64,000 bases of DNA from NCBI RefSeq assembly GCF_015487465.1, contig NZ_WFPS01000082.1:1-64000 (forward strand), written 5' to 3'. This DNA comes from Persephonella sp. Lineage in GTDB: Bacteria; Aquificota; Aquificia; Aquificales; Hydrogenothermaceae. Below are positions 17,873-28,286 of the stretch, piece by piece. Positions within the stretch are counted from its first letter, which is position 1. Every line of letters begins with the position of its first letter. The translations under genes and the position numbers were made by a program. Below the pieces are notes generated by a model. The model saw only the letters and a program-made list of their open reading frames with translations, was not told where the DNA came from and did not search any database.

Positions 17873-20188
17873 TTATTTTATGTGAACTATTGTAACCCCC
17901 ATGCCTCCTTCATTGTAAGGGGCATCTTCATAATCAATTTTATAAGGGAGTTTATCAAGATACTCCCTTATGGCTTTTCTTAAAACCCCTGATCCGTATC
18001 CGTGTATAATCCTGAGTGTTGAAAAACCCTCAACAACAGCTCTGTCAATGAAATGTTCAAGCTCTTTAACAGCCTCTTCTTTTGTTTTTCCTATAAGCTT
18101 GATCTCAGGTTTAAAGGGGGTTTCTCTTTTTCTGCTGAAAGAAAAGCTGGTCTTTTTTTCTTTTTTTTCTTCATTAACCTTTTCAATATCTGAGATGTCA
18201 ACCCATATCTTAATGCCGTTAAAGTTTATGTTTGCCCTGTTTTCTCTTATTGATATAACCTCTCCAACAGAGTTTTTTCCTTTTATCTTTACCTTATCTC
18301 CGATGTAAAACTCTTCTCTTTTTGTTTCTTCTTGGTGAATATTTATCTGCTTTTTTTTCTGTTTTATAAAATCTTCAAGAGATTTTCCTGATCCTGAAGT
18401 TTTCAGTTCCTGAAGTATCCTGTATCCTTCTTCTCTTATACTCTTTATGTAGTTTTCAGCCTCTTCTTTGATGATCTTCCAGTTTTCCTTCCTATACTTT
18501 TCAAGTTTTTCATTTAATCTGGCATACTTTTCCTTCTCTTTTATAAGCTCTTTTTTTAGTTTTTCCACTTGTGAAAGTTCTTTTTCATGTTTTGATTTGT
18601 AAATATCCAGCTCTTTTAATGCTTCCTCAAATCTATGGTAGTTTTCATTAATATATTTCTTTGCTGTTTCAAGTATTTCCTGATCAAATCCTAATTTTTC
18701 AGCTATGTAAAAAGCCATGCTTTCACCAACAGAGTTGTAGTGGAGGGTGTATGTGGGTGTCAGTCTTTCCTTGTCAAAACCTACAGATGCAACAGAAAAA
18801 TAGCTATCTGAAAGGGCGTATATCTTTATCTGCCTGAAGTGTGTTGTTGCCATAACATAACAACCTGTTTTTTTTAGTTTTTCAAGCACTCCTATACCTA
18901 TGGCAGAGCCTTCGTCCGGATCTGTTCCCGGAATCAGTTCATCAAGAAGAACAAGACTTCTTTCTGTTGCATTTTTTAATATACCGTCAATGTTTAGTAT
19001 ATGTGCCGAAAATGTGGACAGATTTTGTTCTATAGACTGCATATCTCCTATGTCTGCAAATATGCCGTCAAAAACAGGTATACTACTTCCTTCTTCCACA
19101 GGAACAGGGATACCTGATTGAACCAGAATGGCAGAAAGTCCTGCTGTTTTTAGCGCTACAGTTTTTCCTCCTGTATTTGGACCTGTTATCACTATACCTC
19201 TGTTTATTTTTATATCAATCGGTTTAAAGTTCTTTCTCAGCATAAGGAAAACAGGGTGTTTTGCTCCTTTAAGCTCAAATCTTCCTGATACTTCAGGAAA
19301 TCTACACCTGTATTCTTTTGAGTATTTGCCGATGGTGTAAAGGGTATCAATCTGTATAATGGTTTTAAAGGATTTTTTAATAAGATCAGCCTTCTTTCTG
19401 AGTATGTCTGTTATAAATTTCAAAATTCTTCTAATCTCTATCTGCTCTCTAAGTTTCAGATCTGAAAGTCTGTTATTAAGCTCAACAACAGATACCGGCT
19501 CAAGGTATACGGTCTGTCCTGATGAAGATCTGTCCTGTATTATCCCTTTTATTCTTCCTGAAAAATTTTGTTTTACCGGTATAACATACCTGTCCCTTCT
19601 TACTGTTACAATCCGTTCCTGAATAATGTCAGAATACTTCTGGCTGTTTATTATTCTTTCAAGAGTTGATATTATCTGTTTTTCTATCTCTTTTATCCCC
19701 TTTCTTATGTTATACAGATCCCTGCTTGCCGTATCTTTTACCATTCCTGAATCATCTATACTTTCTGCTATTATTCTCTCTGTTTCCCTTGATGAGTATA
19801 GATTTTTATATATCTTTATCAGATATTCTGTATTTTTCACATCTTCAGAAAGGAAATTTTTTAGGGTTCTGGATATCTTCAGTATCCTGTAAATATCAAG
19901 TATGTTCTGGGCTGTTAAAACACTTTCCTGTATGAAAAGAAGTTCCAGAGGCTCAGATATATCAGGAAATTCTGACAGGGGGATATACCCTTCTTTGTTT
20001 AGGATATTAACAAATTCCTGTGTTAGATTTATCTTTTCTAACACCCCTTTTTGATCTGTTTCAGGCTTTATAGACAGTATCTTCTCTTTTGTTGTGTCAT
20101 TAGGTGTCAGTTTTGATAGCTCTGTTAAGAACTTATCAAACTCAAGAAGTTTAAGATCTTTTTCTCTCATGCTTTTTGTTTTTACCAA
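17873..20188 (-). CDS. mutS2: MutS2 family ATPase/endonuclease
   Basis: MutS-like protein without the mismatch-recognition domain; the family suppresses homologous recombination and acts in ribosome collision rescue in some bacteria. The Walker A GPNTGGKTVALKTAG is at about 336-343 and Walker B at LVLLDELIPGTDP. A coiled coil follows (about 515-610), a KOW-like region (IGDKVKIKGKNSVGEV), and a C-terminal Smr nuclease domain with RIIHGYGSGVLRKAIREYL. Length is 771 aa, typical. The start is probably TTG at 20188, since AAGGAGG lies 12 bp upstream. The next in-frame ATG at 20170 is too far from that site. Confidence 0.93.
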   Translation of the reverse strand: MVKTKSMREKDLKLLEFDKFLTELSKLTPNDTTKEKILSIKPETDQKGVLEKINLTQEFVNILNKEGYIPLSEFPDISEPLELLFIQESVLTAQNILDIYRILKISRTLKNFLSEDVKNTEYLIKIYKNLYSSRETERIIAESIDDSGMVKDTASRDLYNIRKGIKEIEKQIISTLERIINSQKYSDIIQERIVTVRRDRYVIPVKQNFSGRIKGIIQDRSSSGQTVYLEPVSVVELNNRLSDLKLREQIEIRRILKFITDILRKKADLIKKSFKTIIQIDTLYTIGKYSKEYRCRFPEVSGRFELKGAKHPVFLMLRKNFKPIDIKINRGIVITGPNTGGKTVALKTAGLSAILVQSGIPVPVEEGSSIPVFDGIFADIGDMQSIEQNLSTFSAHILNIDGILKNATERSLVLLDELIPGTDPDEGSAIGIGVLEKLKKTGCYVMATTHFRQIKIYALSDSYFSVASVGFDKERLTPTYTLHYNSVGESMAFYIAEKLGFDQEILETAKKYINENYHRFEEALKELDIYKSKHEKELSQVEKLKKELIKEKEKYARLNEKLEKYRKENWKIIKEEAENYIKSIREEGYRILQELKTSGSGKSLEDFIKQKKKQINIHQEETKREEFYIGDKVKIKGKNSVGEVISIRENRANINFNGIKIWVDISDIEKVNEEKKEKKTSFSFSRKRETPFKPEIKLIGKTKEEAVKELEHFIDRAVVEGFSTLRIIHGYGSGVLRKAIREYLDKLPYKIDYEDAPYNEGGMGVTIVHIK

Positions 20189-20240
20189 AATATTTATTTA
20201 CCTCCTTTTTTCCTGAAAAATAGTGATTTTTAGGATATTT

Positions 20241-23665: not shown

Positions 23666-24250
23666 CTAAATATACAGTTCCACTATTTTCAGCTTAAAGT
23701 TTTCTGCCTCTTTTTTCAAAATTCCCTTCCCTATAATATCACCATTTACAAGAAGTTCCACATCAAACTGATCTGAGTTTGACAGCAAGACCTGTGATGT
23801 TTCTCCAATGCTGTCAATCTCTGAAAGAGGTATTTCCTTACTGAAAAGTTTAATGACAACAGGCAGAGATATATCTTTTGTCTTTTTCTGTTCAGGTTGT
23901 TGGTGGGGCTTTTTTTTGTTTATTTTGGTTGTTTTTACGATTATCCCGTAATCAAAAAGCTGTCCCTCGTTTTCAATATCAAAAACAATGTCTTCAGGTA
24001 GCACGTCGACTGTTTCGTACACATCTGTATGGATTTCTCCTGATCCAAAAATATCTCTGAAAAGATTTTCTCCCCAGTCAGAGCCTTTTATGAAAACAAG
24101 CATTACAAAAAGATCGCTTCTGATAAATATGCTGCTACTTTCATCTGTAACACAGTAGTAATTTTCTTCTCTTTTTTCACGGCTGTTTACTGTTCTTTCT
24201 TTTACCTTTTCTAACCTTTCAGACAGTTTTTGTTTGATTGAATCTTTAAT
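23666..24250 (-). CDS. fliN: FliN-like flagellar motor switch protein (SpoA domain), apparent ATT start codon
   Basis: The C-terminal 75 residues form a SpoA domain as in FliN/FliM: ISLPVVIKLFSKEIPLSEID, then DVELLVNGDIIGKG and a hydrophobic end. The coding frame continues well upstream of the first ATG (24103), through EENYYCVTDESSSIFIRSDL, to ATT at 24248-24250. A strong Shine-Dalgarno AGGAGG ends 5 bp before it. No ATG, GTG or TTG occurs in frame between. With ATT the protein has 194 aa: a basic helical N-terminus, a middle domain of about 80 residues, a Lys/Gln-rich linker and SpoA. FliN forms the cytoplasmic C-ring with FliM. The neighbouring gene upstream is FliM-like, ending 9 bp before. 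Confidence 0.78.
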   Translation of the reverse strand: MKDSIKQKLSERLEKVKERTVNSREKREENYYCVTDESSSIFIRSDLFVMLVFIKGSDWGENLFRDIFGSGEIHTDVYETVDVLPEDIVFDIENEGQLFDYGIIVKTTKINKKKPHQQPEQKKTKDISLPVVIKLFSKEIPLSEIDSIGETSQVLLSNSDQFDVELLVNGDIIGKGILKKEAENFKLKIVELYI

Positions 24251-26237: not shown

Positions 26238-27095
26238 TAGAGCTTTTGTTGCTTTAAGAAGCTGTTTCTGACCTACTTTTGCATATCTTGCTGTAGTTAT
26301 CGGGGATGCATGTCCTAAAAGTTCCTGGATTATCCTCAGCTCTGCTCCAGACTGGAGGGCTATTGTTGCTGCTGTGTGTCTTAGTTTATGAGGATGAAGG
26401 GATATACTGCATCTTTTTCCTATATTGACTATCATCTTCCACAGGCTAAAATAAGAGATCGGAAAGACCTTTTCTGAGCTGTTGAACATAAGGTATTCAT
26501 AAAACAGTTTCATAGGTTCTCCTGTTATAGGAACCTCTCTTTCTTTTCCTCCTTTTCCTTCAACCCTTATATAGATTATGTCCTGATCTTTTATATTAAG
26601 GGTGTATATTGAGTCTGTTGTGTAGATCTTTCCTTCATGCTCTATCAGCACATTATTCCTTTTTATCCCAAGAAGTTCTGATGACCTTAAACCTGTTGTT
26701 AACATAAGAACAACTATTACCTTTTCTGTTAATGTTCTTGTTGCGTTAATCACCTTTTTTATCTCTTCGTGGGAAAGAGCTGAGGGTATCTTTTGGGATA
26801 TTTTTGGTCTGTGGGATCTGGTTATTGGTGAAGAGCTTACTATCTCAAGATCAATCAGATACTCAAAAAATGAGTTTATACAGGCAAGCTTTCTTGCGAT
26901 TGTTGATGATTTTCTTCTTTTTGACTGGAGAACCATTCTGAATTTTGCAATGTCTGCTTTTGTTATTTTTTCTACATCTTTATCCCCTACTATCTGCATA
27001 AACTGGTTTAGATCTGCTCTGTAGTTTTTTATTGTGTGTTCAGATTTGTCAGATATGTAAGAAAGAAACAGCTCTGCACATTCAGATATTTTCAT
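26217..27095 (-). CDS. xerC: Tyrosine recombinase, XerC/XerD-like
   Basis: Site-specific recombinase of 292 aa, probably for chromosome dimer resolution. An N-terminal SAM-like core-binding domain (about 1-85) precedes the catalytic domain. The active-site residues are Arg in TTGLRSSELLG (137), Lys in EGKGGKEREVP, His and Arg in HPHKLRHTAA (236, 239), His in ELLGHASP (262) and nucleophile Tyr in TTARYAKV (271). The ATG at 27095 overlaps the ubiX stop as ATGA. No phage or integron genes are near, which favours a housekeeping role. Whether it is XerC, XerD or a single XerH-type enzyme is not decided by sequence here. Confidence 0.85.
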   Translation of the reverse strand: MKISECAELFLSYISDKSEHTIKNYRADLNQFMQIVGDKDVEKITKADIAKFRMVLQSKRRKSSTIARKLACINSFFEYLIDLEIVSSSPITRSHRPKISQKIPSALSHEEIKKVINATRTLTEKVIVVLMLTTGLRSSELLGIKRNNVLIEHEGKIYTTDSIYTLNIKDQDIIYIRVEGKGGKEREVPITGEPMKLFYEYLMFNSSEKVFPISYFSLWKMIVNIGKRCSISLHPHKLRHTAATIALQSGAELRIIQELLGHASPITTARYAKVGQKQLLKATKALSENIKI

Positions 27096-27661
27096 TCCTT
27101 CCACCTTCTGTAAAGGCTGTGCTTTATACCAAAATGATCAAGCACCTTACCAACAACGAAATCAATCATCTCCTCAACGGTTTTTGGATTATTATAAAAA
27201 GCCGGAGATGCAACGGCAACTGTGCCTCCTGCTATTGTTATCTTTTCCATATTTTTGATATGTATAAGTGACAAAGGCATCTCTCTGACAAGCATAAAAA
27301 GTTTTTTCCTTTCTTTCAGGGCAACATCACAAACCCTGTGAATAAGGTTGTTTGATATTCCGTTTGCAACAGCTCCAAGTGTTCCAGTAGAACAGGGGGC
27401 AACTATAACCCCTTTTGTTTCTATAAGCCTTGAACCGCTTGAGATAGGAGCTTCAATCCTATTCTGGTCGTAAAAAATACAATTTTCAGGTAGATCTTTA
27501 AAAAACTCCTCTTTTTTTATTCCTGCTTCTTCTTCCATCACTTTAAATCCGCTTTCTGAAACGATCAGATAAACAAAATGATCCTTTAAAAGTTGTTGAA
27601 GCAGTCTTTTTCCGTATAAAAATCCGCTTGCCCCTGTTATACATAAAACTATCTTTTCCAT
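27092..27661 (-). CDS. ubiX: UbiX/Pad1-family flavin prenyltransferase
   Basis: Makes prenylated FMN, the cofactor of UbiD-type decarboxylases. The N-terminal motif LCITGASGFLYGKRLLQQL binds FMN. VAPCSTGTLGAVANGISNNL is highly characteristic, and so is KLFMLVREMPLSLIHIKNM. Length is 189 aa, typical. A UbiD partner is not in the window. A UbiA-like prenyltransferase (51.4 kb) and a UbiE-like methyltransferase (43 kb) suggest quinone synthesis as one use. It overlaps the recombinase gene by 4 bp and is divergent from dedA. Confidence 0.92.
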   Translation of the reverse strand: MEKIVLCITGASGFLYGKRLLQQLLKDHFVYLIVSESGFKVMEEEAGIKKEEFFKDLPENCIFYDQNRIEAPISSGSRLIETKGVIVAPCSTGTLGAVANGISNNLIHRVCDVALKERKKLFMLVREMPLSLIHIKNMEKITIAGGTVAVASPAFYNNPKTVEEMIDFVVGKVLDHFGIKHSLYRRWKE

Positions 27662-27706
27662 AGGACGATTATGCCATAGGTTATAATAATATTCTATTAG
27701 TTTATC

Positions 27707-27711
27707 GGAGG
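27707..27711 (+). promoter_or_regulatory. Ribosome binding site that decides the ATA start of the DedA gene
   Basis: GGAGG at 27707-27711 is followed by an 8-bp spacer and ATA at 27720-27722. The 12-mer ATCGGAGGTAAT (27704-27715) also occurs at the flagellin ribosome binding site (57452-57463), and GGAGGTAAT is close to the full anti-SD complement GGAGGTGAT. Confidence 0.75.
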
Positions 27712-27719
27712 TAATTTAA

Positions 27720-28286
27720 ATAGAGAGCCTTGAACACTTTCTACAGAATTACGGATATATTGCTGTTTTTATCGGCACATTTCTTGAAGGTGAACTTTTT
27801 CTGCTTGTTGTTGGCTTTTTCATAAAACTTAAACTTCTTAATCCTTATGTATCTCTTGTTTCTGCAATGGCAGGGGCTTTTCTCCACGAGATAATATACT
27901 TTCTTGTGGGCAAATGGAAAGGAAGGCAGTTTCTCCTCAGAAATAAACATACCAGAAAAGAATATATGAGAGCTAAAAAACTACTCCAAAAATACGGCGT
28001 TTTATCAATCTTTATAATCAGATTTTTGTATGGAATGAGAATGATCCCGATGATGCTTATGGGTGCAACAGGCTTTGGAACTGTGAAATTCATTTTTTTC
28101 AATCTCATATCTCTATTTTTCTGGGCAGTGATTTATCTTTCTGTAGGTTATTTCTTTGGAAAGGCAGCAGAACATTTCTTCGGGGAGGCAAAAGAGTACT
28201 ACTTTATAGCTGTTGGTGTGATAATCTTTTTCCTTTTTCTTATACTTATATATCCGAGGATTGCCGAAAAAATCAGAAAAGAGTAA
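27720..28286 (+). CDS. DedA-family membrane protein, apparent ATA start codon
   Basis: The DedA/SNARE-associated fold is seen in LEGELFLLVVGFF near the start and in IIRFLYGMRMIPMMLMGATG, which holds the conserved R-x3-G-x-R pattern. Several TM helices and a C-terminal helix (VGVIIFFLFLILIYP) follow. DedA proteins act in membrane lipid and proton homeostasis; some flip undecaprenyl phosphate. The coding frame runs upstream of the first ATG (27867) through SLEHFLQNYGYIAVFIGTF to ATA at 27720, 8 bp after GGAGG. No ATG, GTG or TTG occurs in frame between, so ATA is the apparent start (188 aa, near family size). Starting at 27867 would delete the N-terminal helix. Confidence 0.8.
   Translation: MESLEHFLQNYGYIAVFIGTFLEGELFLLVVGFFIKLKLLNPYVSLVSAMAGAFLHEIIYFLVGKWKGRQFLLRNKHTRKEYMRAKKLLQKYGVLSIFIIRFLYGMRMIPMMLMGATGFGTVKFIFFNLISLFFWAVIYLSVGYFFGKAAEHFFGEAKEYYFIAVGVIIFFLFLILIYPRIAEKIRKE

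Follow-up and report, generated by a model that had tools for sequence, protein, structure and literature searches.

The membrane-protein gene dedA of Persephonella sp., a hot-vent bacterium, is predicted to begin with an AUA codon that is conserved across the family Hydrogenothermaceae. In the window, the 64,000-nucleotide stretch of DNA analyzed here, this codon lies at 27720, and we put the probability at roughly three in four that it is the true start of dedA, kept by selection, most likely with a low and IF3-dependent output. The position of the start, its conservation and the set of genes that share its type come from sequence comparison, and from these we infer AUA initiation, low output and IF3 dependence. 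The features at and around the locus are as follows.

23666..24250, minus strand: FliN-like gene with an AUU start (ATT 24250-24248)
27092..27661, minus strand: divergent neighbour of dedA, a flavoprotein gene (UbiX-like; PF02441)
27682..27687, plus strand: TATAAT -10 box
27707..27712, plus strand: Shine-Dalgarno sequence GGAGGT
27717..27719, plus strand: in-frame stop TAA directly 5' of the AUA
27720..27722, plus strand: predicted AUA initiation codon
27720..28286, plus strand: gene for a DedA-family (VTT domain) membrane protein, 188 codons
27867..27869, plus strand: first in-frame ATG, rejected as start and read as internal Met50

Positions 27707-27725 read GGAGGTAATTTAAATAGAG, and the dedA frame contains no ATG, GTG or TTG between the TAA and the ATG at 27867. 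The Shine-Dalgarno sequence matches AAGGAGGUGAU over the 6-mer GGAGGT at an aligned spacing of 8 to the AUA, a spacing that recurs in most relatives, a few of which carry a weaker GGGGG. The first-pass annotation had placed the start at this ATA after GGAGG and called the Shine-Dalgarno site extended; the strong match at a suitable spacing stands, but the adjective is slightly generous for a match of six bases. No 16S anti-Shine-Dalgarno tail turned up in this assembly. Because GGAGG-N5-9-ATA is common by chance, with 15 matches observed in the window against 9 expected, rarity of the motif was dropped as an argument, and the case for dedA rests on conservation instead.

An exact TATAAT is found 36 to 38 nt upstream of the AUA in 13 of the 14 genomes of the genus, and a perfect TATAAT at this distance also occurs in several other genera. 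From the position of this box, transcription of dedA would start near 27695 and produce a leader of about 25 nt, too short to hold a further start. The dedA TATAAT is absent from the results of the promoter scan of the window, as it has no accompanying -35 match. Only 58 bases separate the ATG of the UbiX-like gene from the AUA, an interval that hardly allows a different arrangement. Among members of the Sulfurihydrogenibium clade, dedA apparently lies directly behind a tRNA-like end (GGTTCAARTCC...CCAGGGACA) and is without a TATAAT of its own.

Comparison with related genomes, a check proposed in the first-pass annotation, supported the AUA start across the family. Orthologues of dedA were gathered from 25 family genomes and 12 further named genomes, giving 37 distinct Hydrogenothermaceae genomes, and in 26 of these the start is unambiguously AUA (24) or AUC (2), with no AUG, GUG, UUG or CUG available. 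The codon is ATA in all 14 genomes of the genus, where the preceding in-frame codon is TAA or TAG in 12 and ACC or ACT in 2; across relatives this codon varies further (TAA, TAG, ACC, ACT, AGA, AAA and others), and so cannot serve as the dedA start. An ATG lies one codon upstream in 6/37 genomes, all of the Sulfurihydrogenibium type (ATG-ATA/ATC/ATT-GAA), and a TTG or CTG takes this place in 5/37. In one of the genomes, the P. marina-like G015, the Shine-Dalgarno sequence is only ~3 nt from the TTG and 6 from the ATA, so that AUA may be the dedA start in this genome as well; in G021, CTG is the better spaced codon. With an AUH codon (H being A, C or U) kept at the homologous place and no AUG, GUG or UUG available, the dedA AUA is, as judged from these alignments, a real feature conserved across the family, and its use as a start is probably regulatory.

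The product of the gene is a member of the DedA family, its VTT domain matching PF09335 with E=6e-13 and 49.7 bits (Pfam cut-off 33.9). The NCBIfam equivalog for the undecaprenyl-phosphate transporter UptA scored 43 bits against a cut-off of 250, so the assignment stops at the family and does not extend to a subfamily. Homologues align from residue 1, and 14 of the first 25 positions are invariant. Over codons 2-49, synonymous change is high and replacement change is low, about equal to or less than that over the remaining codons, a pattern indicating strong purifying selection on the N-terminal 49 codons. The invariant positions and the low replacement change together argue that the 49 residues before ATG 27867 are part of DedA, in agreement with the earlier suggestion that the frame upstream of this ATG is coding.

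This conservation bears directly on a shorter product of 139 residues initiated at 27867, which the first-pass annotation had named as one outcome that would speak against the AUA. The ATG at 27867 is the first in frame and the one that automatic callers may pick, but protein-level conservation is strong upstream of it and synonymous changes are in excess there, making the shorter protein very improbable. We regard as similarly far-fetched an initiation upstream or in another frame, followed by frameshifting or read-through into the dedA frame: the TAA or TAG that precedes the AUA in most genus genomes is readable as the end of an upstream frame, but the leader predicted from the TATAAT is only ~25 nt long, and the codon before the AUA varies among relatives and is often a sense codon that is not a start. 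Least credible of all is a sequencing or assembly error concealing a true ATG. Although the window genome is represented by one draft assembly, the same ATA appears in independent assemblies of many species, as does the ATT of the FliN-like gene, which disposes of the clustered base errors raised at first pass.

The ATT start that had been noticed 3.5 kb away proved to be that of the minus-strand FliN-like gene, identified by a weak FliMN_C match and conserved in relatives: all 12 genus genomes in which the gene was examined have ATT at this codon, and G015 has ATA. Across most of the genus, the Shine-Dalgarno sequence of the gene overlaps the stop codon of the upstream gene (TAGGAGG). The gene lies behind another minus-strand gene, and an ordinary ORF listing shortens it to ATG 24103. 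The copy in the draft relative G011 has an in-frame TAA at codon 13, reflecting either decay or an assembly error.

Further AUH starts were sought by an orthologue survey, used in place of a column-by-column search of the window for start-like codons, which was too noisy. Stretches of ~560 kb from each of two relatives yielded 366 orthologue pairs, in which we looked for homology that reached, in both genomes, well beyond the most 5' ATG, GTG or TTG, combined with a Shine-Dalgarno sequence and an AUH codon at the head. Only dedA, the FliN-like gene and rsfS emerged; three is a lower bound, since a gene is visible to the survey only if more than 7 conserved codons precede its first ordinary start. 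DUF58-like and mutS2-like genes may also have AUH starts. Together with infC the three genes form a small conserved set, which does not support a general relaxation of start-codon choice, offered earlier as an explanation. A second family of the order, used as control (G025 vs G027, replacing a G025 vs G033 pairing that shared too few genes) gave 0 convincing cases in 89 pairs, a sample too small to show a difference from 3/366.

The clearest further case is rsfS, the ribosome silencing factor gene (PF02410 and TIGR00090 matches), whose start is AUH in 21 of 24 family genomes (ATA 15, ATT 3, ATC 3) and never AUG, GUG or UUG in these 21. The same position is ATG in Desulfurobacteriaceae-type outgroups and in one inner clade. 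Like IF3, RsfS is an anti-association factor. The gene upstream of rsfS stops 2-3 nt before the rsfS start in much of the genus, an arrangement that suggests translational coupling. The infC start is ATT across the family, with ATC in one genome, and in the genus the gene follows an almost invariant leader, AAATAAAACTGGAGGTAAATTAGTC. G is rare at the third base, with 5/24 and 3/12 four-fold columns lacking it, so absence of a third-base G in any single gene is not improbable; what carries the case is the number of genes (four), the many genomes compared and the way A, T and C replace one another in rsfS. One other gene in the window, of 771 residues (17873-20197, minus strand), shows AAGGAGGT with ATT at spacing 9 and TTG at 12, and relatives carry CTG or TTG at this site, leaving its start uncertain.

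We propose that the ordinary initiator tRNA would begin dedA translation at AUA 27720, with a well-placed GGAGGT on a short leader as its guide, and that the AUA would be kept by selection across the family. Such a start would hold DedA synthesis low and, as with infC, allow more of it when there is little IF3 for the 30S subunits present; dedA, infC, rsfS and the FliN-like gene, with the same type of start, would then make up a small co-regulated set. Among the 29 tRNA genes found were one ordinary initiator (C1-A72, GGG/CCC anticodon stem) and two other CAT tRNAs, with no sign of a special AUA-reading initiator. IF3 discriminates against AUU, AUC and AUA, and it destabilises 30S complexes wherever the start codon has a final base other than G (PMC4611024). 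In S. aureus, infC, ccpN and cvfC1 have conserved AUA and AUU starts with strong Shine-Dalgarno sequences, and the measured output of such starts is ~10% of that of AUG, rising to 30% for ccpN in rich medium (PMC13009471). The dedA start has the same anatomy, which, with the discrimination by IF3, points to a true start of low and IF3-dependent output, and compensation of the AUA by the strong Shine-Dalgarno sequence, matching the published cases, is plausible.

The main rival accepts the AUA as the true start and holds that it sets a fixed low level of DedA without response to IF3. This has a precedent in E. coli pcnB, cited in PMC13009471 and PMC4227106, and a strong Shine-Dalgarno sequence with a weak codon could suffice without IF3. 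It also suits the placement of rsfS and the FliN-like gene: both closely follow other genes, and a weak start in such a position would lower the product ratio. UUG, GUG or a weaker Shine-Dalgarno sequence could, however, give the same output, and a codon class shared with infC hints at IF3; we consider a fixed level the less probable account.

The IF3-dependent reading of dedA has partial parallels in known systems. The infC genes of E. coli and S. aureus (AUU/AUA) likewise combine a start discriminated against by IF3 with a good Shine-Dalgarno sequence and conservation among relatives, but dedA encodes no translation factor and thus would form no direct autoregulatory loop. Another parallel is ccpN of S. 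aureus and B. subtilis, a non-translation gene with an AUA start, conserved between genera and with a strong Shine-Dalgarno sequence (PMC13009471); it differs in being a different gene in another phylum and in having been shown experimentally, whereas dedA is known by comparison and belongs to an AUA/AUU/AUC class common to several genes of one family. A weak start codon is also found in E. coli pcnB (AUU), a different gene, where it limits translation.

No earlier report of an AUH start in dedA, rsfS or Persephonella was found in the open literature, outside which most subscription journals lie, so the AUH starts of dedA and rsfS and their family-wide conservation appear to be unreported, although the kind is known from infC, pcnB and S. 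aureus ccpN. A previous re-annotation of Aquificales accepted ATT and CTG as starts (PMC4227106). As most gene callers ignore starts other than AUG, GUG and UUG, genes of this type are likely shortened or missed in public annotation. A family-wide set of AUH starts common to two ribosome factors, IF3 and RsfS, is also a natural setting in which to ask whether bacteria regulate genes other than infC globally through IF3 proofreading.

An IF3+RsfS tree with outgroups left the base of the family unresolved. In a tree of DedA+RsfS, one clade (99/98) holds the three genomes whose rsfS starts with AUG; in their dedA genes, the ATA is preceded by ATG or TTG. A more tentative extension of the proposal is a start-codon regulon of the Hydrogenothermaceae, in which infC, rsfS, dedA and the FliN-like gene would be set jointly by free IF3/30S and this clade would have reverted rsfS and dedA to AUG (or UUG). 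The use of AUG (or UUG) for dedA and AUG for rsfS indicates that the AUH start is dispensable there. The ATG of this clade's dedA lies only 3-4 nt from the Shine-Dalgarno sequence and is followed by Ile, suggesting that a new ATG was gained before the old AUA.
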